Assembly: GCA_910574195.1 (NCBI GenBank)
Contig: CAJTBF010000001.1
Coordinates: 62,001-126,000, forward strand
Direction of reading: 5' to 3'
Origin: Lachnospiraceae bacterium
Lineage (GTDB): Bacteria > Bacillota > Clostridia > Lachnospirales > Lachnospiraceae
Length of the DNA: 64,000 nt
Below are positions 31,379-52,882 of the stretch, one piece after another. The position numbers and the translations under genes are program-made. Under the pieces are notes generated by a model. The model ran no database searches. It saw only the letters and a list, made by a program, of their open reading frames with translations, and was not told the origin of the DNA. Position 1 is the first letter of the stretch, and each line of letters starts with the position of its first letter.

Positions 31379-32002
31379 ATATTTAACTCCTGTTGCCCCA
31401 TCCCATTCTTATCGTAAACCGGCAGAAACTTTTGTGAGATGCGTTCTTATTTCCGCGAAGCAACGAGCCAAGTGGACATGCTTGCATGTACATTTGGCGA
31501 CTGCCGCGAGGGGCAAATACCCCGCAGCTTGTTGCGCATAACAAATTTCATGCCCCGTAGCTTGCTGCGGGGTATTTGATTTCTCATGTACCGGTATGTA
31601 TCCTTAAAAACAGGGGCGTTATTCACATCACTCCGTATTTTGAGAAAAGTTATTCACATTTTACCTGGATAATCCGGTGGAAATGTGTCATTCACACTGC
31701 TACTCTTCTCCATTGCCGCTTTATAAATTCTCTTGTAGATCTTACACTTTTATATTGTATACACGTATTCATATTAATGGTCAAAATACGATACTTCTCT
31801 ATCCTAGCATCTTTTTTTCATAAAGTAAAGAAAACGTTTGGATTCTTCCCCTCTTTTTTCCAACGTTCAGCGCTTTTTTGCTAAAATACAACCTGTTTTT
31901 GTTTCTATTTTACGTAAATAATTTACTGCTCCACACTCTTTCTTCTTTTAGAAGTGCGTGCAAAAGCCATCGACAAAAAATTTTTTCTACTTCATAAATA
32001 TG
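31379..32002. other. Gene-free stretch with palindromic element
   Basis: About 620 bases without a convincing gene. It contains the palindromic element described at 31468-31578. The part from 31,600 to 32,000 is AT-rich with scattered TATA-like sequence and no open frame having a ribosome site. Confidence 0.5.
31468..31578. repeat. Nested palindromic intergenic element
   Basis: Two adjacent hairpins are present. The first has arms GCCAAGTGGACATGC and GCATGTACATTTGGC (31468-31498, 13 of 15 paired). The second is a perfect 15-base inverted repeat CAAATACCCCGCAGC ... GCTGCGGGGTATTTG (31514-31528, 31564-31578). The preceding ATGCGTTCTTA (31437-31450 area) is shared with the GGACTTT stem-loop family elsewhere in the window. 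Confidence 0.65.
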
Positions 32003-33509: not shown

Positions 33510-34217
33510 ATGCAAATTCGTACATATTACCATGTCCTGGGCGTTTCCAGGGATGCGACTCCCGCGGAGATTACAAATGCGAAAAATGCGCTGGCAAAAA
33601 TATACCATCCCGATGCAAATATGAACCATGAGATAGATACCACTGCATATATGCAGGAAATTTTAGAAGCCTATCAGGTACTTTCGGATCCGGTGCAGCG
33701 AAAAAAGTACGATCAAAAACTAAGCGGCGGCGCCAATCGGGTATTCCGTACTTATAAAGTCGGGGAACCCGACGGACAGACGCAGGAATCCGATACGTTT
33801 GTTACATTTTGGAATGCGGCTTTGAAGCTACAAGAGACTGTGGCCAACAGTTCCAGACTTTTACAGCAGGATGCAAAGCAGAAAACACTTGCGATGAAGC
33901 TGCTGGAAAAAATCGGAAAAGTGGACAAGACTGAGAAGGAGCAATATGATCAACTCTGCGCCCTTTCCGTGCAGGCGCTTCAATATATCGCTGTGTTGAA
34001 TAAAGCGGAAATTCCTGTAGAATACTGGAATCCGGAAGCGATGAACTGGGTATTAATCCGTTGGGGCCAGAATCAGACTGCCGATTATCAAACGTTATTC
34101 GCCAAGTATGACGCCTATCTCAATCAGAAAAAATCCGGAACCGAGCGTCTGCGTCTCAAATCGCAGAACCGTCAATTCAAAAATAATTTAAAAAAACTGC
34201 TGGCCTACGCTCTATAA
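33510..34217 (+). CDS. DnaJ-domain protein
   Basis: 235 residues. An N-terminal J domain (about 3-72) has the HPD triad at residues 33-35 (IYHPDAN) that stimulates DnaK ATPase. No zinc-finger or typical DnaJ C-terminal domain follows. The rest is a mostly helical, charged region of unknown family ending in a basic RLRLKSQNRQFKNNLKK tail. It is probably a specialised co-chaperone. The start has AAGGAGG eight bases upstream. The gene is convergent with the phosphatase gene and their ends overlap by six bases. Confidence 0.85.
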   Translation: MQIRTYYHVLGVSRDATPAEITNAKNALAKIYHPDANMNHEIDTTAYMQEILEAYQVLSDPVQRKKYDQKLSGGANRVFRTYKVGEPDGQTQESDTFVTFWNAALKLQETVANSSRLLQQDAKQKTLAMKLLEKIGKVDKTEKEQYDQLCALSVQALQYIAVLNKAEIPVEYWNPEAMNWVLIRWGQNQTADYQTLFAKYDAYLNQKKSGTERLRLKSQNRQFKNNLKKLLAYAL

Positions 34218-34230
34218 GCGCAGCCAGCAG
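34191..34230 (-). terminator. Shared terminator at the convergent gene ends
   Basis: The hairpin CTGCTGGC ... GCCAGCAG (34197-34204, 34223-34230), with inner pairs, overlaps the stops of both genes. On the minus strand it is followed by T6. Confidence 0.6.
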
Positions 34231-34670
34231 TCTTGCAGGAGGGCTTCACAGCCCTCTTTGATGTCTTCATAGGTTTTGTCAAAATCTCCGGTATACCATG
34301 GATCTGCAATGTCTCTTGGATGCTGCGAAAAGTCCAGCAGGCGGCAAACCTTATGCTCGGGATCGCCTCCCAGGATCCGCAGCATATTGCGGAGATTCCT
34401 CTGCTCCATTCCAATCAAATAATCGTAAACGCCATAGTCTTTTTTTCGAAGCTGCACGGAATATTTGCCCTCTGTGGAAATGCCGTATGCACGGAGTTTC
34501 CGCACGGTTCCATAGTGCACCGGGTTCCCCAGCTCTTCTGTACTGGTGGCCGCAGAGGCGATGTAGAATTGTTCCGCCGCGCCTGCGCGGGCTACCAGAT
34601 CTTTCATTACAAATTCTGCCATGGGGGAACGGCAGATGTTGCCGTGGCAGATAAATAGGATTTTTATCAT
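34212..34670 (-). CDS. Low-molecular-weight protein-tyrosine phosphatase
   Basis: 152 residues from ATG 34670 (AAGGAG upstream). The N-terminal P-loop CHGNICRS gives Cys8 and Arg14 as nucleophile and phosphate binder, and the general-acid DPW motif lies near residue 125. It dephosphorylates tyrosine (or arginine) residues of proteins. It is the integration target of the mobile element: the first codons and about 80 upstream bases occur again at 50534-50640, where a stop ends the reading after 13 codons. The present promoter and start may therefore be donated by the element. Confidence 0.92.
   Translation of the reverse strand: MIKILFICHGNICRSPMAEFVMKDLVARAGAAEQFYIASAATSTEELGNPVHYGTVRKLRAYGISTEGKYSVQLRKKDYGVYDYLIGMEQRNLRNMLRILGGDPEHKVCRLLDFSQHPRDIADPWYTGDFDKTYEDIKEGCEALLQDCWLRL
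34640..34657. other. Left attachment site core
   Basis: TGCCGTGGCAGATAAATA, identical to 50534-50551. It lies in codons 5-10 of the phosphatase gene. Similarity of about 90 percent continues to about 34735 versus 50630, beyond the core. Confidence 0.75.
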
Positions 34671-34809
34671 TTTTCTATAACTCCTTACATGTTCTGTATT
34701 TCTTCTCAAATGCTTGATTTAACAGGGTTTTTGAACAATTCCGAAACTGTGTGTTTCCAAAGTATTTTCTCAAATCGTTTCATACTTTCTCATATTTGTC
34801 CCTGCAAAA

Positions 34810-34855: not shown

Positions 34856-36055
34856 TTAAGAGTTTGCCACTCGCTGCAGTTCCTCTTTCGCATCATCGAA
34901 ATTCACATGGGTGTAGGTGTTCAATGTTACGCTGATATCCGCATGGCCCATGATGTACTGTAAGGTCTTCGGATTCATCCCTGACTTCGCCATATTAGAG
35001 CAAAAGGTATGTCTGCATACATGAGGGGTTACCTTTGGCATCTGAATACGATAAATTTTGTTATACTTTTCGATGATATGCTCCAGATACTTCTCCCAGT
35101 GAAGGGCAACCATTGGCATATCATTCTTATCCAGGCACAGGAAACGGATATAGCCATCTACCATAGGCTCAACTTTCGGTGTTTCCCGATTAGCAATGAT
35201 TCTCCGAAAACACGCTGCCACTTCTTCTGTCATAGGAACATAGCGGACACCGCTTTCCGTTTTCGGCTCCTGAATCACATATTCCATCTGTGATGTGCGC
35301 TGTAACTGATGGTCTACCTTAATACGCATTTCCCCAAATTCAATATCAGGTATTGTCAGCCCGCAAAACTCCGAAATACGAAGTCCCGTATGGAAAAGGA
35401 TATAGATTGCGTCATAGTATCTTTTAAAATGATTATCCTCTCTGATAAACTTGAGCAAATCCCTTTCCTGTTTCCGGGTAATCGCTTCTCTGGTCACAGA
35501 ATCATTGACAATAACTGATGCCAGCTCAAATCCAAATGGATTCTTGCGGATCAGGTCATCATCTACAGCCATCTGAAATGCCGGTCTGAGAACACCACGG
35601 ATAGAGTGAATGGAACTATATCCTCTGCCATCCACCTGCTGAAGCTTAATGAGCCACGCCTTTGCATCTGACAAACGTACCTTGTCAATACGTTGCCTGC
35701 CAAATGTTTCCTTTTTCAAGACGTTAATGACTGTCTTATATCCGGCAACCGTGTTGTGGCGAACCCCTGTTTTCAGCGACACATACTTCTCCACCAACTC
35801 CAGCACCGTATAATTGCCGCCATTGGTTACGATGTGGTCAAACAAATCCGCTTCAATCTGCTTTTCTTTCTCTCTCAATGAAGGCTCTCGCTTCTTGCCT
35901 TTCGGCATTGGGTCATTCTTATCCAAACGCCAACTGTAAACATTTTTCTCTTTTCCGTCCTCGTCAATATAACGGAACCGATACCTCCCATCTGAGCGCT
36001 GATACTCGCCCTCTCGCAAAATACGATTACGGTTATCTCTTCTTTTCTCACTCAT
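34856..36055 (-). CDS. int: Tn916-type tyrosine recombinase (integrase)
   Basis: 399 residues, close to the 405 of Tn916 Int. An N-terminal arm-DNA-binding domain (about 8-75), a SAM-like core-binding domain (about 85-180) and a catalytic domain are present. Catalytic residues are visible in HTGLRISEFCGL (Arg), HVCRHTFCSNMAKSG (His-x-x-Arg), GHADISVTLNTYTHV (His and nucleophile Tyr). It performs excision and integration at the att sites. The start ATG 36055 has AAAGGAGAG upstream, and the coding strand runs towards the left end, as usual. Confidence 0.95.
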   Translation of the reverse strand: MSEKRRDNRNRILREGEYQRSDGRYRFRYIDEDGKEKNVYSWRLDKNDPMPKGKKREPSLREKEKQIEADLFDHIVTNGGNYTVLELVEKYVSLKTGVRHNTVAGYKTVINVLKKETFGRQRIDKVRLSDAKAWLIKLQQVDGRGYSSIHSIRGVLRPAFQMAVDDDLIRKNPFGFELASVIVNDSVTREAITRKQERDLLKFIREDNHFKRYYDAIYILFHTGLRISEFCGLTIPDIEFGEMRIKVDHQLQRTSQMEYVIQEPKTESGVRYVPMTEEVAACFRRIIANRETPKVEPMVDGYIRFLCLDKNDMPMVALHWEKYLEHIIEKYNKIYRIQMPKVTPHVCRHTFCSNMAKSGMNPKTLQYIMGHADISVTLNTYTHVNFDDAKEELQRVANS

Positions 36056-38699: not shown

Positions 38700-40289
38700 T
38701 TAAAGTTCCATATTCTGTTGTTTCTGTGTCCGGGGCGGCTGGCTTTTCGCTGCCTGCTCTTGCCGGATGCGTTCCTGCCGCCCTTTCAGGCTCTCCTGAA
38801 CGGACGGTTTCCTCCCCGGATCGGCGGTCTGGCGGTACTGCTCGGATGGCAATACCTGATTGAGCCAGTGGCGCACGTCACGGAGTACCTTCACGTCCGC
38901 CTGAACCGCTTCCAGCTCCTTCCTCTGTCCGGGCAGGGCGGCGGCAAGCTGTTCCCGTTCGGATTCTAAATCTTTACGGGAGTAAGAGTTTCCTTTCAGG
39001 TTGGCTTTAAAATACCGGATGGCGGCATTGTAAGCGTCCAGTTCCTCCCGGTGGCTCTCCGCAAACTTCTCCTTTTTCTTCTTCCAGCCGATGGCGGCAT
39101 ACTCCGCATGGACTGGCTTGCCCGCTTCGTATTTGTCAATGTAGGACAGCATGGTGTTGATGGCTTTTATGCGTTTCTCGCTTTTTTTTATGCTCCCCAT
39201 GACGGAAACGGCGTTCTGGCTGATTTCGTCCAGCCGGGTGTCAAGGCTCCCCACGGTGGAGATTCCTTTCTTCCGCAGGAAGTCCATAGCCGCCTGCACT
39301 TTATTGTAGTCAGCAACTGTGCCTTTCAGTTTCCCTCTGGAAGTCCAGCCGGCACGTTCCCCGCCCCGCAGTTCCAGATACTGAAAAAGCAGCTCCGGGA
39401 GTGTCGGTTCCTTGGCCTGCTCCAATGCTTCCAGAAAAGCGGCTTTTTTCTCTTTTAAGTCGGCAATCCAGCCTTTTAAATGGCGCACCATCTGGCGGAT
39501 GGACTGCATGCGGGAGTTGGCGGCTCTGATGTCCCGGTTCAGGTTGCCGATGTTGGTCTGGATTCCTTTCTTCTCCATCTGGCAGGCGGCTGGCCCCATG
39601 TGGACGGTGGGGATTTGGTCAATCCCCTGTCGGACATAGGAACGCAGGTCAAGCCGTTCCGGGCGGTCGTTTGCTTCCAGATAGCGGTTGGCCGTATCCG
39701 CCCATCCCTGCCGCCAGATTTCAGCGTACTTCCGGTCGTTCCAGTCCACGGTGTTCTCCTTGTGGCTTTTCCATCTGCCGGACGGGAGCCGGATTCTTTC
39801 GCCGTTTTTGTCAAGGTCATAAACTTTGCGGCTCTTGGGGAGCCATTTCCCTTTTTCGTCCATCGCCCGCATGGTGAGCAGGATATGGGCGTGGGGGTTC
39901 CCATCCCCCTTGTCATGGATGGCAAAGTCGGCTATCATGCCTTTGGAAACAAAAAACTCCCGGCAGTAGTCACGGAGAAGGTCGGCGTACTGTCCCGGCG
40001 GGATTTCCCTTGGGATGGCAAGCACGAACCTCCGGGCAAGCTGGGAGTTCCATTGCTTTTCCTGCGCTTCGGCAGAGTTCCATAGGGTATTGCGGTCTGC
40101 ATACTCCGGCGGCACATGGGGCGGGAGCATGATTTCCTTGTGGGTGACTTCGTTTTTATAGGGATAGTATTTCTGCTCTTGGTCGTATTCAGAGAACAGC
40201 TTCTCGCCGCTCTGGTAGGCGGCGGCAGAAACAGCGGATTCATTGTTGCTCCGCTTAATGATGGTGATTTTACAATGCGGGCATGGCAA
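38700..40289 (-). CDS. MobA/MobL-family relaxase
   Basis: 529 residues from TTG 40289 (AAGGAGAG upstream; an ATG at 40370 would add 27 residues). The HUH relaxase domain has motif I AVSAAAYQSGEKL with the likely nucleophile Tyr and motif III AIHDKGDGNPHAHILLTM with the metal histidines. A long coiled-coil C-terminal half (about 255-500) follows. It nicks oriT and pilots the strand into the recipient. The oriT-like palindrome lies 1.2 kb upstream, across the MerR gene, which probably inserted between them. Confidence 0.93.
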   Translation of the reverse strand: MPCPHCKITIIKRSNNESAVSAAAYQSGEKLFSEYDQEQKYYPYKNEVTHKEIMLPPHVPPEYADRNTLWNSAEAQEKQWNSQLARRFVLAIPREIPPGQYADLLRDYCREFFVSKGMIADFAIHDKGDGNPHAHILLTMRAMDEKGKWLPKSRKVYDLDKNGERIRLPSGRWKSHKENTVDWNDRKYAEIWRQGWADTANRYLEANDRPERLDLRSYVRQGIDQIPTVHMGPAACQMEKKGIQTNIGNLNRDIRAANSRMQSIRQMVRHLKGWIADLKEKKAAFLEALEQAKEPTLPELLFQYLELRGGERAGWTSRGKLKGTVADYNKVQAAMDFLRKKGISTVGSLDTRLDEISQNAVSVMGSIKKSEKRIKAINTMLSYIDKYEAGKPVHAEYAAIGWKKKKEKFAESHREELDAYNAAIRYFKANLKGNSYSRKDLESEREQLAAALPGQRKELEAVQADVKVLRDVRHWLNQVLPSEQYRQTADPGRKPSVQESLKGRQERIRQEQAAKSQPPRTQKQQNMEL

Positions 40290-40403
40290 GTGTGCGCTCT
40301 CCTTCCTCCCGGATTCCGGGCAAAAAAAGAGCAGGATAACCTGTTTAGATTTCCTGCTCTTTGCCGCCATTGATTAACGGCAGATATTTAGTTGTCCTTT
40401 TCT

Positions 40404-46880: not shown

Positions 46881-46888
46881 ATATTCTA

Positions 46889-46985
46889 TCAAATATAAAT
46901 CAACTCATTGTTTATAATTTCCTCTGCCCGGTTGCGGATATTGTTAATCCTCCCTATCCATTTATGCCGGTTCCGATTTTTAACT
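46889..46985 (-). pseudogene. tnpV: 3' remnant of a tnpV gene
   Basis: The minus strand reads NRHKWIGRINNIRNRAEEI followed by INNELIYI and a stop, the C-terminal 30 residues of TnpV. It aligns with the end of the intact gene at 50015-50398 (about 75-80 percent at DNA level) and is in the same orientation. The rest of the gene is missing. It marks the left edge of the AT-rich insert that carries the 820-residue ATPase. Confidence 0.85.
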
Positions 46986-47023
46986 TTTTGTATGTTCATG
47001 AATAATTCAGGTTTAATGTTATG

Positions 47024-47123: not shown

Positions 47124-49586
47124 ATGACTGGATATATAAATAATATTATGTTAAATGATTATGGATATGAATATGGGTATATTACAGGCGATGATGGATA
47201 TTCGTATTCTTTTGATGGCAGATCCCTATTTGGCACTATAAGAATGGAAAATTGCGATTTTGATGATGAAGTAGAGTTTGATTCAATCCCTCCCACTGCC
47301 AATCATAAATATGGCAGAGCAAGTAATGTTATGCTTATCAAACTGAAAGATAGATTTGCGAACTTTCAAAATTTTTCTGCAAATACACCTGCTAATTCAA
47401 AAGAAGTTATTGATTTCTTTCCCCCAGGCTTTGCAGTTCATATGAATAAACAGGATGCTTATAAACAATATTTAAAACCTTTTTCAAAAGAAGACTTAAT
47501 CATCGATAAGCTGAGTCAAGTATTATATATCTCTCGCATTGGACATCACTTTATTGATCAACGAAGTAAATTTGAGTTCTGTTTGGCTGGAACGACAAAG
47601 GTTTTAAAACAATTTATACATGGGAAAAGTGAATTTCTTATTATTTTTTCATACTTCAATTCAAACGATTGGCAAGCCAAAAATTTAATCGTTGAAAGGG
47701 AAATTCGAAAACGGAAAGAAATATCTGACAGAAGACCTCTTGTCAATTTCTATATTTTAATATGTAATGCCTATAGTTTGATGCAAGAAGTAGAAAAAAC
47801 AAAAGGAAGCACAAATGCAGCCATAATTCCATTCAGCTTTAATGACATATTAAGTTGCTCTTCTAAAGAACAACTAGAGTCACTTATAGTTGAGCGTTTT
47901 GGTGAATACTTATATGAAAACAATATGCTTGGTGAAACAAACGCTATTGATGATGATAATTTGCTATTTGGTGACCGTGGCAAAATTGCGGACTTAATTG
48001 TTGATCGTTGTCAAAAAAATGCATATTCTGGAATATTCGGACTTAGAAGGAGTGGAAAAACATCAGTTTTAAAAGCTGTGTTAAGGAGATTTGACAAATC
48101 TGATATTAAGTATGTTAAAATTGAGTCTCGCTCTGAACTGGAGAATTTGGATTCTTGGAAAACTGCGCTATATGATATTGCCAAAAAAATCAGGCAAGGA
48201 TCTTTAGGCATAGAACAAGATGAAAGCGAAACAAGAAGAGAATTTACGGAAAGATTAAAATTAAATAGCACTGAAGATGACTACTACAAACGCCCTTCTG
48301 CATGCTTTGTTGAGGACGTAAGGTTGTATTGTAAAAATCAAAGTACATTTGTTATTGCTATTGATGAAATTGAGTTAATAACATTTAATACGGCCAAAAG
48401 TAGAACCTGGCAGACTGTAGAAGCATACTGTGGGTTTTGGGGTGCATTAAGAGATTGTGGTTGTCCACTAATAATTTGTGGAGTAAATTCAACAATCAAT
48501 GAATTAAATACAATCTCATTTAACAGCGAAACCGGTGACAACCCTATGTATAAGAGAATTCTTAGTTGTTCTGATTTCTCTGATACCTATTTACCGGCAT
48601 TTACGAATGAGCAAACCCTATATATGATAAATACTTTAGGTGGATATAGTAATATCGGCTTTTCTACTGTTTATAACGAAATAAATAATGCTTTTGGTGG
48701 TCAACCATATGCAGTAAGACAATTTTGCTCATATGCTTTTGAAAAGGTAAAAAAATTCAGAAAATCTAATGAAGTATATGAAATAAGTAAAGCAACTATT
48801 GATAATTTACTAACAGACTTTCAAAAATCATCCGAAGGAAGTAGTCTTTGTGAAATAATTCTTCAACATGTAACAATATTTGTTGATGAATATGAAATGC
48901 TAAAAAAATTAGCTTTATCCCCAGAAAAATATAGAAAAATAGATAACCAACAAATTGACAAAATAGATCATTTACAAAAATATGGTTTAATTAACTATGA
49001 TCCAAACACAATGTTCGTTTCTTTTAAGATACATTCCATATATAACTATATATGTCAAAAATATGCAAAAGATCCTATTGATATGACGAACCAAGAAAGG
49101 CGTGAATATATACAAACTCATGTTTCCGAATGTGAAATCAAATTTAAAACATATTTATGCAATTATTATATTTATAATGTTAACGGTGAAACAATATGCC
49201 GAAATATAATGAAAGGTTATATCAACTCGGCATCTCGTTATAAACCAGTTAAGATTAATCCCAAGGCTTCTCCAATACCTGATCCAAACACTTGTAATAT
49301 AAGAGAATTTTTTGACCATAAAAAATTCATAATGTATTTTTCTTCAATTAAGGCTATTATAAAAGATAATTGGTCATCCTTAGGAACTAAATTGGAAAGT
49401 GTTGGAATTACAAAAGATAAATTCAATTTATTTATGGATGATTTGAATGCTGGAAGAAACGATGCTGATCACTATGATGCTGAAGATCTTACCGTATATC
49501 CAGAAAAATGGATGATTAGTGATACCACAATGCAAAATTTTGAAAATGCATTAAGAAATCTGAAACAATTTTTTGAATTAATCTAA
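47124..49586 (+). CDS. Multidomain P-loop ATPase with cold-shock-like N-terminus and HEPN-like C-terminus; candidate defence protein
   Basis: 820 residues, not a family I know by name. Residues 1-75 look like a cold-shock/OB fold (GYINNIMLND..GYITGDD, DEVEFDS). Residues 120-270 are an uncharacterised alpha/beta domain. An ORC/STAND-type ATPase follows: LLFGDRGKIADLI before Walker A GIFGLRRSGKTS (Lys312), Walker B FVIAIDEIE (Asp414, Glu415), and a sensor strand PLIICGVN. Residues about 570-645 suit a winged helix. The C-terminal helical region has GRNDADH, an Arg778-x4-His783 motif as in HEPN ribonucleases. Composition is much more AT-rich than its neighbours. AAGGAG lies ten bases before the start. 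It stands alone between a broken and an intact tnpV. A role as a single-protein anti-phage system is inference. Confidence 0.8.
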   Translation: MTGYINNIMLNDYGYEYGYITGDDGYSYSFDGRSLFGTIRMENCDFDDEVEFDSIPPTANHKYGRASNVMLIKLKDRFANFQNFSANTPANSKEVIDFFPPGFAVHMNKQDAYKQYLKPFSKEDLIIDKLSQVLYISRIGHHFIDQRSKFEFCLAGTTKVLKQFIHGKSEFLIIFSYFNSNDWQAKNLIVEREIRKRKEISDRRPLVNFYILICNAYSLMQEVEKTKGSTNAAIIPFSFNDILSCSSKEQLESLIVERFGEYLYENNMLGETNAIDDDNLLFGDRGKIADLIVDRCQKNAYSGIFGLRRSGKTSVLKAVLRRFDKSDIKYVKIESRSELENLDSWKTALYDIAKKIRQGSLGIEQDESETRREFTERLKLNSTEDDYYKRPSACFVEDVRLYCKNQSTFVIAIDEIELITFNTAKSRTWQTVEAYCGFWGALRDCGCPLIICGVNSTINELNTISFNSETGDNPMYKRILSCSDFSDTYLPAFTNEQTLYMINTLGGYSNIGFSTVYNEINNAFGGQPYAVRQFCSYAFEKVKKFRKSNEVYEISKATIDNLLTDFQKSSEGSSLCEIILQHVTIFVDEYEMLKKLALSPEKYRKIDNQQIDKIDHLQKYGLINYDPNTMFVSFKIHSIYNYICQKYAKDPIDMTNQERREYIQTHVSECEIKFKTYLCNYYIYNVNGETICRNIMKGYINSASRYKPVKINPKASPIPDPNTCNIREFFDHKKFIMYFSSIKAIIKDNWSSLGTKLESVGITKDKFNLFMDDLNAGRNDADHYDAEDLTVYPEKWMISDTTMQNFENALRNLKQFFELI

Positions 49587-49662: not shown

Positions 49663-50014
49663 GCATTTAGCCAATTCCAATATTACCAAAAACAAAAATC
49701 GAAATGCATACTGTATTTACCTTTTACCATTCCTATAATACCTACGCCTACTGATCCAACTTATTCATTTACTTTCCATTTAAAAATATTTAACTAATCA
49801 GTAGAAACTCTGCATACTATCACGAATTAGTTCAACGGCTTTTTAAGAAACCTTCGCATTAAAAAGTAGTAAGCGTCAAATCACTCGCCTTGGATAATTA
49901 GCATTTTTGTGTGGCTCTCTAAAAGGCACGAAAAAACTAGTAGTTTTTTAGAGGAGTAACCAGTATGGATCAAATTACACATTGGTCATAAACCAGCTGG
50001 TTTTCGCATAATAA

Positions 50015-50398
50015 TCAATTATAAATCAATTCACTTTTTACGATTTCCTCCGCCCGGTTGCGGATATTGTTCATCCGGCCTACCCATTCAAGCTGGTTTC
50101 GGGCTTTCAGTTCCTCGGTCACTCCCCCGGCGGCTTTCATCTGCTCCACGATTAAATCAAGCCGTTTCTCTGCCTGCCCGTTCAGGTCAGCAAGGTATGT
50201 CCATAATTTCCCGGTCAGGATAAGGGAGCTGTACCGTGCCGGGTGTTCCTGTTTGAGATATTCCCGATGCAATCGTCCATAGCGTCCGATGGGGCGGCTT
50301 TCCTCCGGCAGCTTCAAGTCAGGAATATAATAGTCGCCTACCAACGTATAATGTAGTCCATTATTCCCATCATAAATATGTTTTTTCAATTTATCCAT
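50015..50398 (-). CDS. tnpV: Transposon-encoded protein TnpV
   Basis: 127 residues. The pattern GDYYIPDLKLPEESRPIGRYGRLHREYL, then LTGKLWTYLADLNGQAEKR and the ending WVGRMNNIRNRAEEIVKSELIY are those of TnpV, first named in Tn4451 and common in clostridial mobile elements. Its molecular role is not known. It is the last gene before the right end of the element. A ribosome site GAGGAG precedes the ATG. Confidence 0.9.
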   Translation of the reverse strand: MDKLKKHIYDGNNGLHYTLVGDYYIPDLKLPEESRPIGRYGRLHREYLKQEHPARYSSLILTGKLWTYLADLNGQAEKRLDLIVEQMKAAGGVTEELKARNQLEWVGRMNNIRNRAEEIVKSELIYN

Positions 50399-50472: not shown

Positions 50473-50533
50473 ACTGAGTAAGAAACACGGAAAACATTGG
50501 ATTTATAAGCATTTTACCATGATCAACAAATCC

Positions 50534-50551
50534 TGCCGTGGCAGATAAATA
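50534..50551. other. Right attachment site core
   Basis: TGCCGTGGCAGATAAATA, same as 34640-34657. On the minus strand ATG at 50563 begins a displaced phosphatase start that reads MIKILFICHGRIC and then stops. Confidence 0.75.
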
Positions 50552-50640
50552 ATATTTTTATCATTTTTCCATAACTCCTTATATGTTCTATATTTCTTCT
50601 CAAATGCTTGATTTTACGGGATTTTTGGATTATTACCAAG
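50534..50640 (-). pseudogene. Displaced 5' end and upstream region of the phosphatase gene
   Basis: About 107 bases matching 34640-34740 at roughly 90 percent: the first codons of the tyrosine phosphatase, its AAGGAG-like site and upstream DNA. After ten codons the reading diverges and stops. This is probably the original chromosomal start of the gene, cut off by insertion of the element. Confidence 0.7.
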
Positions 50641-50990
50641 CTTCTGTATTTCCATTCGGCAAATTATAGAACATAGTCCCATTTTCGTATTCATGTATTT
50701 ATGTACAATAACCGCTCTGTAATGCTAGTCCCTGTGTATCAGACGATCTTCCATGACAAATATTCTGATTCGTTATTTAGAAGAAGGGGGAAAAGAGCGA
50801 TTTATTCTCGCATGACCTCTACGGTCATACTTGTTTTTCAAATTGACTCGACAATTTATTTTGCAAATAAGTAAAACAAAAAGTATCAACTTGTGAACTA
50901 ACCTCCAAAAGTCGGACCAAAAATCTAGCGTTCGAAGGCCACATCATTTTTACGATTGATCCTTTCTGACATATCCTTTATTTTATGATT
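50641..50990. other. AT-rich gene-free stretch beyond the element
   Basis: About 350 bases with no gene, repeat or clear promoter that I can support. Confidence 0.4.
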
Positions 50991-51866
50991 CTATGTCTCA
51001 TTATTTCTCATTAAATCAAACTTACTAATAGCTTTTTCTAAATTTTGAAATGCCATTTCCCTTATCGAAATATATTGTGAAACTTCTTCTGCAATATCTC
51101 TTTGCACACTTTCACTTATTCTTGGGAGTTTAAATTGTTTAAAATATTTATCAGTAATTGAAGACATTATTGCACCAGAAGACATTTGTTCAATGAACAT
51201 ATCATAATAAGTTGAACGAAATATCAAGTACAGAACTTCTGGTAAATATTCATCATCTCTAATAACATAGAATCCTGTTGATGCAACTACATTATCTAAT
51301 TCACTATTTACAATAGCAATCTTTTCTTTTGAACCTTTAATCTTTCGACCAGTTTTTCCCATTTTTTTTCGTAGTATTCGGTATCAAATCTTTGTACAAA
51401 TTCTTTACAGGACATATTCAAAACAAACATATTCCCCATATCTTGGTAAATAAAGTTTTTTCTTGTATCCATATTGGACCGGCTTTGTTCTTTCCCAATA
51501 ACTTATATCATTACCATTATTCCAAACAACAATGGAAGCGGTTGTACAATTTCCATAACTTTTAGCTTGTACTTCTCCCTCCATGACATTAGATTGCTTA
51601 CATTCAACAATGATATATATTTCATCCGTTGACTGCATAGCATTTCTATAAATTACTATATCTGCACGTTTGGGATTTCCAGTAACAACATCTATAACTT
51701 CGGATATTCCATTTTTAATAGGAGCCTCTTTTGCCATATTTTCCTTTGGATAACCATACTCTTCGTGTAAAACCTTTAAATACGCTTGCCTTACAATTTC
51801 TTCTGGTTTATGTGTTATGTCAATTTCTTTTCCGGTGAGATAGTCTTTGATAAGATTCTTACTCAT
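50991..51866 (-). pseudogene. Collapsed restriction-modification gene (HsdR_N-like start joined to specificity-domain end)
   Basis: The 5' part (51866-51405, ATG with AAAGGAG upstream) encodes an HSDR_N-type domain: HKPEEIVRQAYLKVLHEEYGYP, RADIVIY and IYIIVECKQ with the nuclease-like Asp and Glu-x-Lys. It breaks off near 51405. The 3' part (51362-50991, other frame) reads like the end of a target-recognition domain (FYVIRDDEYLPEVLYLIFRS, DKYFKQFKLPRIS). The N6-adenine methylase expected between them is missing. It looks like a single-chain R-M protein with a large internal deletion and frameshift. Confidence 0.7.
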
Positions 51867-52043
51867 ACAATTCTCCTTTAGTATTCGTTCTTCCTTATGT
51901 GTCCAGTTAAGATTGTAAACGCGTGTGTTCACAATCTGCTTATCAGGAAAGCACTGACAAAATTTGATGTAATAACGCAAATTTCTTTTAGAATAATTTT
52001 TGCCAAACTCCTTTGTCAAATTTTCTGCTAATGTGGAACTCAA
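51867..52043 (-). pseudogene. Fragment of a DUF1016 (YhcG-like) gene
   Basis: The reading frame upstream of the previous remnant encodes LTKEFGKNYSKRNLRYYIKFC and FPDKQIVNTRVYNLNWTH, part of the DUF1016 N-terminal domain found in YhcG-type nuclease/recombination proteins. Both ends of the gene are gone and the frame runs on into the next remnant. Confidence 0.65.
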
Positions 52044-52882
52044 ATATCCATACTACATTCATTCAGCAAAAAATCATAAACACTCATAACCAGCACACCA
52101 TTATCATTGTAATACGGTGTTGGCGCCTCTTTCGTGATAATGATCTTCTTGAAAAAATCTCCGGTCAGCATCAGAGAACGCTGTTCCTGCTCCATCTTTT
52201 CCCGGTCTGGAATCGCATAGATAGTCAATATACCTTTTAATAGTTGTGTTACTGATGGTTTTCTGCCTGACCGATTTAAAAGTGGCCGATAATTTTGTCG
52301 GATTTGTAAGCGAACCGATAGCAGATGAGAGGATATTCAAAAGTTCCTCCAATTCTGCCCGGTTCCATACATTATGTCTGCCTACAATATCCGAAATATA
52401 GGTTTCCTCGAACAATGCCTTTAAAAAACTAATCTTTTCCTCCGGACTTGAAATATTCACGATAGGCGGCAATCCACTATAAAGCATATATTCGTTCCAG
52501 CCGTCCTGTTTTGTTCCCGCATAAACGGACATAAATTCAGCAAAACTGAGGGGATGCATATGAACTTCATCTCCCTGGCCTCGGAATTCAGTAATCACAT
52601 CTTTAGACAAAAATCGGGCATCGCTTCCTGTCACATACACATCTACATTTTTCATACGGATTCAAACTCTCCTAAAAGCTGCACCTCGTCCAACAGGACA
52701 TAATACACTCCATCGCCTTTAATCTGTTCCTTAAGATAGGAGTACAGAACATTTGGATCACGAAAATGCTTATTTTCAAAAGAGTCAAATGCAATTTCTA
52801 TAATGTGCTGTTCATCCGTTCTTTCTTCCAGCAAATTTTTTAGCGAGTTATCGCGAAATTCTTCAGTAGCATTATACCTCAT
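52040..52882 (-). pseudogene. Broken AAA-family ATPase (AAA_14/DUF4143 type)
   Basis: Three pieces in different frames: 52882-52652 (HIIEIAFDSFENKHFRDPNV, YYVLLDEVQLLGEFE), 52655-52104 (NVDVYVTGSDARFLSKD, FRGQGDEV, SLFEETYISDIVGRH-like) and 52228-52040 (REKMEQEQRSLMLTGDFFKKIII, VLVMSVYDFLLN). The N-terminal P-loop is lost, a small deletion breaks the frame at about 52655, and part of the DUF4143 region is missing near 52220. A GCGAGTTATCGC repeat (52843 and 52919) flanks the lost N-terminus. Confidence 0.8.

Follow-up and report, generated by a model that had tools for sequence, protein, structure and literature searches.

Control of a C-terminal HEPN RNase by an N-terminal NTPase within one anti-phage protein is established for PrrC and RloC, whose NTPase is of the SbcC/Rad50-like ABC type (PMC3710099). 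Swt1-like HEPN domains fused to STAND-ATPases were tabulated in 2013 (PMC3710099); Table 1 of that paper lists Npun_F6454, MED222_16016 and Desac_1927, which join such a HEPN to a STAND-ATPase, TPR and S1, and gives the fusions as mostly active. The BREX-related DUF499-HEPN ATPases also combine a HEPN domain (Swt1/Abi2 clade) with an AAA-type ATPase (PMC12839542, PMC3710099), with the HEPN at the N-terminus and the gene beside a methylase and a helicase (PMC12839542). Within P4-like satellites, the interval between int and psu is a hotspot of anti-phage systems, HEPN-bearing ones included, and one of its residents, TIR-STAND-TPR, is an NTPase-switched single protein with its effector at the N-terminus and sensor repeats at the C-terminus (PMC9122126). 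Tha, from staphylococcal prophages, is a 301-aa single-gene anti-phage protein with a C-terminal HEPN (R-x4-H), and the accessible text on it mentions no NTPase (PMC11087260). Several other HEPN systems appear in PMC13092281 and PMC9519451, in passages too brief for comparison.

We analysed a 64,000-nucleotide stretch of Lachnospiraceae DNA (the window), which encodes an 820-aa protein (P0001) that belongs with these systems without coinciding with any of them. Its order of parts is that of PrrC and RloC, which gives a precedent for the C-terminal position of the possible effector that an earlier note on this DNA set against the more usual N-terminal one. Whereas the PrrC/RloC NTPase is of ABC type, that of the present family is AAA_22/ATPase_2/AAA_35-like, and Pfam found no ABC ATPase family (SbcC/Rad50-like) in P0001 up to E 1. 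The three tabulated fusions combine a HEPN of its clade with a STAND-type ATPase and an OB-type RNA-binding domain, likely counterparts of the parts of P0001, so this kind of protein was foreseen; the TPR named for them has no counterpart by Pfam in the window protein, in a comparison made by description alone. Unlike DUF499-HEPN and TIR-STAND-TPR, P0001 carries its effector at the C-terminus; it also differs from the former in having no recurrent partner gene, from the latter in lacking Pfam repeats and from Tha in possessing an NTPase. Among the papers that our literature search listed, none was recognisable as covering the family, and earlier testing is possible. P0001 is a member of a widespread bacterial family that is apparently unnamed. 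With a probability of roughly 55%, we read P0001 as a stand-alone, mobile abortive-infection-type defence protein in which a STAND-like NTPase would restrain the Swt1-type HEPN endoribonuclease at the C-terminus and release it once infection is sensed.

The gene and most of the domain reading put forward in the earlier note are borne out: one 820-residue frame encodes an NTPase and, by sequence, a C-terminal HEPN-type domain. The gene is present once in its own genome. It is indeed AT-rich, with a G+C content of about 31% across 47-50 kb (1-kb bins) against roughly 38-57% in the remaining bins of the 30-60 kb region; the exception is the bin at 51-52 kb, whose value is as low as that of the focal gene. 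Searching the PDB by sequence with the whole of P0001 gave nothing of note. PADLOC 2.0.0, which models Avs among other systems, matched no family to P0001 up to E 1 and none to a close relative (L002); two more distant relatives matched PDC-M34B weakly (P0002, 0.0017) and PDC-S01 on the ATPase (P0003, 6.8e-6). Conservation was read from an alignment of P0001 with 83 relatives (84 rows). This alignment leaves out L019, which was read without R-x3/4-H, L020 and L021, which have no HEPN, and the truncated loci L054, L078, L103, L104 and L116; P0002-P0004, L002, L023 and L024 also stand outside it. The features of the gene are as follows.

47124..49586, + strand: gene of the 820-aa NTPase-HEPN protein (P0001), a single open frame
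47124..47363, + strand: probable divergent cold-shock (OB) domain, residues 1-80 (relatives' profile, E 0.0027; 5-sequence profile against solved structures)
47457..47951, + strand: family-specific middle domain, residues 112-276, candidate sensor or regulator (relatives-only profile)
47964..48803, + strand: P-loop NTPase core, residues 281-560 (Pfam AAA_22 at 304-455)
48039..48065, + strand: Walker A, residues 306-314 (G306-S314), with Lys312 in 84/84
48363..48368, + strand: Walker B, Asp414-Glu415, both residues in 84/84
49086..49583, + strand: Swt1-type HEPN domain, residues 655-820 (relatives-only profile, 4.9e-9; PF18731 in relatives)
49134..49148, + strand: E671-x3-K675, HEPN Ex3[KR] motif (E in 84/84; K or R at 675 in 84/84)
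49455..49472, + strand: R778-N-D-A-D-H783, HEPN Rx4H motif (R in 84/84; His at x3/x4 in 84/84)

On profile evidence, the C-terminus of P0001 is a Swt1-type HEPN domain. When the window was searched with a profile built from 59 relatives, P0001 not among them, the best match was P0001 (E 4.9e-9). PF18731 (HEPN_Swt1) matched 22 of the 60 C-termini scanned, with a best value of 1.5e-7, and the next-best Pfam family matched three; P0001's own C-terminus is not among the 22. A PDB profile search with the domain returned nothing relevant. The R778-N-D-A-D-H783 motif highlighted by the earlier note is present, with an invariant R always followed by His. We looked through the 84 aligned proteins for loss of either residue, which the note had named as grounds for abandoning the idea, and saw none. 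Ex3[KR] and Rx4-6H are published sequence features of HEPN RNases (PMC3710099, as far as its accessible text goes), and the majority spacing in the family, R-x3-H in 68 of the 84, is shorter than the latter; the other 16, including the window, have R-x4-H. At the alignment column where 83 proteins have His, the window has Asp, with its His one place further on. R-x4-H ending in D-H recurs in L002, L024 and the truncated L104, all outside the alignment. Directly after R, the family commonly has V, A, I, P or S where the window has N779, so a polar residue there is not a family feature.

The complete P-loop ATPase described in the earlier note (Lys312, Asp414-Glu415) is likewise present, and these residues are invariant in all 84 aligned members. 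Pfam assigns P0001 to AAA_22, barely over the cut-off (27.1 vs 27 bits), and lists AAA_14 besides, with no STAND or nSTAND model. A GxP motif after the core is a feature of STAND-type NTPases, and G526-x-P528 follows the core here and is invariant in the 84 aligned members. Three relatives, P0002-P0004, gave sub-threshold matches to nSTAND1 or nSTAND6, and one of them, P0002, exceeds the threshold for AAA_35. Since no Pfam family of superstructure-forming repeats matches P0001 up to E 1 and the HEPN domain occupies the C-terminus instead, we call the protein 'STAND-like' rather than a canonical STAND receptor. The likely winged helix of the earlier note left a single trace, a sub-threshold MCM_C match at residues 540-570 (E 0.0012; 19 vs 27 bits).

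Ahead of the core, the proposed cold-shock/OB fold gained indirect support, by way of relatives. A profile of three relatives' N-termini ranked P0001 first among window reading frames of at least 60 aa, at an E value of only 0.0027, and a 5-sequence N-terminal profile that includes the window matched solved cold-shock domains (2kcm, 8.7e-16; CspB, about 1e-7). The window N-terminus by itself matched nothing, in Pfam or otherwise. Kinship with cold-shock domains is thus plain in the three relatives and tenuous in the window sequence taken singly. A cold-shock-like N-terminus occurs in 4 of the 84 aligned members, as well as in L002, and is therefore not the general sensor of the family; the earlier note had put it forward as a possible sensor. 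Its occurrence in scattered branches requires three changes on the tree, so it was either gained repeatedly or both gained and lost. The middle domain is common to the whole family: a relatives-only profile finds P0001 (E 5.4e-10), and Arg204 is invariant in the 84 aligned proteins. A PDB profile search uncovered no sequence relative of it.

The family is patchy within lineages and broad across them. Convincing copies were found in 2 of 250 genomes of the bacterial family, namely the window's and L002, a full-length relative with 70% identity, and in 1 of 398 genomes of the phylum, which is the window's own. A further candidate from the 250-genome set, L003 (E 6e-4), proved spurious, being unrelated by its ORFs. 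In a further profile search, 20 genomes had matches, and only the window's, G823 and G060 showed near-whole-profile coverage. Motif patterns taken from P0001 alone retrieved no relatives from genome or viral contigs, and profiles that included plasmid relatives succeeded. The plasmid collection held relatives on 19 records with 22-28% identity (16 from Klebsiella and one each from Deinococcus, Qingshengfaniella and Nostoc), 16 of which are called conjugative. A five-row profile found relatives on 11 contigs of the viral collection, and the phage collection contained none in 50,697 records. Across 84,980 species genomes, a 13-row profile identified at least 252 relatives, a lower bound because the scan started from two motifs; the 80 that we kept include Pseudomonadota, Bacteroidota, Bacillota, Chloroflexota, Acidobacteriota and Planctomycetota. 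L067, L079 and L085 are almost identical and come from different phyla, which points to horizontal transfer. In the tree, the window protein pairs with L002 on a long branch of its own (length 3.3) whose exact placement is unsure. A housekeeping gene at a fixed chromosomal position, which the earlier note said would count against it, was not what we saw: distribution is patchy and copies lie in different places. Only one of 42 genomes, G1029 (the genome of L100; contigs C38 and C52), has two family members, and its second open frame, at 832 aa, is close in length to the window protein. Two viral-collection proteins (L020:8757-11048 and L021:357-2861) keep the NTPase core and end without HEPN; L020 begins, by eye, with a cold-shock-like stretch.

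In the window, the gene sits near the right end of what we read as an integrated mobilizable element of about 16 kb, with two direct repeats as its probable ends.

34633..34748, no strand: left direct repeat, probable element end (85% identity to 50527-50642 over 116 nt)
34856..36055, - strand: Tn916-type tyrosine integrase (Integrase_DNA 5.2e-32, Phage_integrase 5e-31)
38700..40370, - strand: MobA/MobL relaxase (PF03389 1.6e-89)
46888..46986, no strand: second, partial tnpV end, left of the focal gene (80% identity to 50014-50112)
50015..50398, - strand: tnpV (TnpV) gene, right of the focal gene (PF14198 6.5e-45)
50527..50642, no strand: right direct repeat, probable element end, pairing with 34633-34748

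A VapE-like protein and a CHC2 zinc-finger protein (Pfam) are also encoded between the repeats. The repeats, integrase and relaxase support the earlier suggestion that the gene is cargo of a mobilizable element. Because the tnpV gene and the 80%-identical end piece bracket it, the cargo may have arrived by recombination between tnpV-bearing elements. The close relative L002 is located elsewhere, near genes that read by eye as EF-Ts and ribosomal protein S2.

Neighbourhoods in E. coli place the copies of that species within the P4 interval introduced above. A DNA search of 5,426 E. coli genomes found the gene in five, each time at tRNA-Sec (selC) and directly after the tyrosine integrase of a P4-like satellite. 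Beyond the gene, psu (phage polarity suppression) is annotated in four of the five copies, one of them IS-interrupted; in the fifth, the stretch inspected is short and runs out in an IS21-type element. The layout of viral contig L011 resembles that of the E. coli satellite copies. Two of the five copies are annotated as two ORFs (L009:15001-17003; L158:3001-5004), hinting at decay or a carriage cost. No partner gene recurs, as the commonest neighbour cluster is found at 7 of 88 loci.

The defence-island enrichment that the earlier note proposed as a check was sought by two crude tests, neither of which showed the classic signature of such an island. The first compared three sets of 130 proteins: one drawn from 330 (150-800 aa) lying no more than 3 kb from a family gene, one from 211 lying farther off than 6.5 kb, and one from 158 encoded on 15 stretches of other genomes in the same family (20 stretches were wanted and five contigs were too short). 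At a PADLOC threshold of E up to 1e-12, these matched 104, 89 and 108 models, respectively, which indicates no enrichment in defence genes, in a test made crude by counting models instead of proteins and by a simple ORF caller. The second looked for Pfam N6_Mtase within 20 kb of 43 family copies in 42 genomes, in neighbourhoods that draft contigs sometimes shorten: no family copy had a strong match (0/43), and two had weak ones (G1002, E 4.9e-5; G1017, 3.1e-6). Pfam families of near and far neighbour proteins showed no clear contrast. A home-made integrase profile matched near 3 of 38 family loci and none of 15 controls, and is too insensitive to use.

Taken with the domain data, these contexts allow a mechanism to be proposed. 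Before infection, the NTPase would keep the HEPN RNase autoinhibited, with the family-specific middle domain possibly acting as sensor or regulator. Once infection is sensed, nucleotide binding or exchange could drive assembly; paired HEPN domains would then form a composite RNase site, cut cellular or phage RNA and halt growth. The cold-shock domain gained by the lineage of the window is likely to bind RNA or single-stranded DNA, and may tune triggering or targeting. The earlier picture of an ATP-dependent sensor switching a terminal RNase retains its NTPase and the conserved active-site residues of its C-terminal HEPN and loses the cold-shock domain as a general sensor. A bolder version, which we consider quite improbable, casts P0001 as an immune receptor of a class of its own, made of one protein: an NLR-like NTPase that carries a Swt1-type HEPN effector at its C-terminus and whose cold-shock domain binds RNA of phage or stress origin, this binding triggering or aiming the RNase. 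If true, the protein would sense RNA and switch on defence by itself, with no need of a guide RNA.

Anti-phage activity of the family is what we infer from the way the protein is built, the conservation of its active sites, its carriage on mobile DNA and the P4 interval. The NTPase-gated defence reading is supported by catalytic residues of both enzymes that are invariant in 84/84 together with Swt1-type HEPN profiles, by the position of all five E. coli copies beside a P4-like integrase at selC in the hotspot of PMC9122126, by carriage on plasmids, viral-collection contigs and an element with integrase and relaxase, by the absence of a recurrent partner (7/88 at most), and by the precedent of PrrC and RloC (PMC3710099), within what the accessible text of both sources covers. 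It is weakened by the lack of defence-gene enrichment and of a PADLOC model, by the 0 relatives in 50,697 phage records and by the R-x3-H majority. Of the earlier note's case for a defence gene, the stand-alone gene on mobile DNA is supported, the int-psu position of the E. coli relatives adds to it, and the enrichment that the note proposed to look for was not found in the two crude tests. The same mobility would suit a selfish stabiliser, an NTPase-gated toxin that hurts cells losing the carrier or receiving a competitor and has an incidental anti-phage effect: its carriers include plasmids, a satellite and the mobilizable element integrated in the window, and HEPN domains do serve as toxins (PMC3710099, accessible part). 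We regard this as unlikely, though worth keeping in view, given that no antitoxin-like partner recurs across 88 loci and that the E. coli copies lie within an anti-phage interval.

It is rather improbable, in our estimation, that the HEPN serves for RNA binding or dimerisation and leaves the work to the NTPase, which might for instance regulate the element or the RNA of the host. Non-catalytic HEPN domains exist (PMC3710099, accessible part), and most members fall outside the published spacing; the window itself has R-x4-H, and the retention of E, [K/R], R and His in 84 very divergent proteins would be hard to explain without catalysis. The weak Pfam likeness to ATPase_2, AAA_22 and an MCM-type winged helix, along with a nucleic-acid-binding cold-shock domain, might recall an ORC/Cdc6-type replication or partition ATPase serving its carrier. 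This we find very improbable, as relatives sit on unrelated elements with their own replication genes and in chromosomes, the HEPN residues are conserved, and the universal, fixed-place occurrence of such a housekeeping gene is contradicted by 2/250 and 1/398 genomes and varied sites. If the NTPase-gated defence reading is right, the PrrC/RloC principle of an NTPase gating a C-terminal HEPN RNase would extend to a second NTPase class, with the cold-shock domain as an optional add-on in scattered branches. It would also tie a large, phylum-crossing family that matches no PADLOC model to a concrete mechanism, for which the intact E. coli P4-satellite relative (WP_021563882.1) is a ready laboratory model.

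The surroundings of the window's element offer a few observations of their own. The gene whose start overlaps the left repeat is one that we take to be a low-molecular-weight phosphatase, and this start looks like an integration hotspot (window 34200-34748; L159, L160). At the matching site in G989, the DNA is similar to the window through its integrase; in G991, the site is present with no match to the window integrase. Beyond the right end, 50991-52655 (- strand) holds short genes that match HSDR_N_2, DUF1016_N and, in part, AAA_14/DUF4143; they may be what is left of genes for restriction or another form of defence. On the other side of the element, window 31447-31582 is a dispersed repeat of about 130 nt, often in many copies, that occurs in at least 10 of 12 genus genomes among the matches listed.
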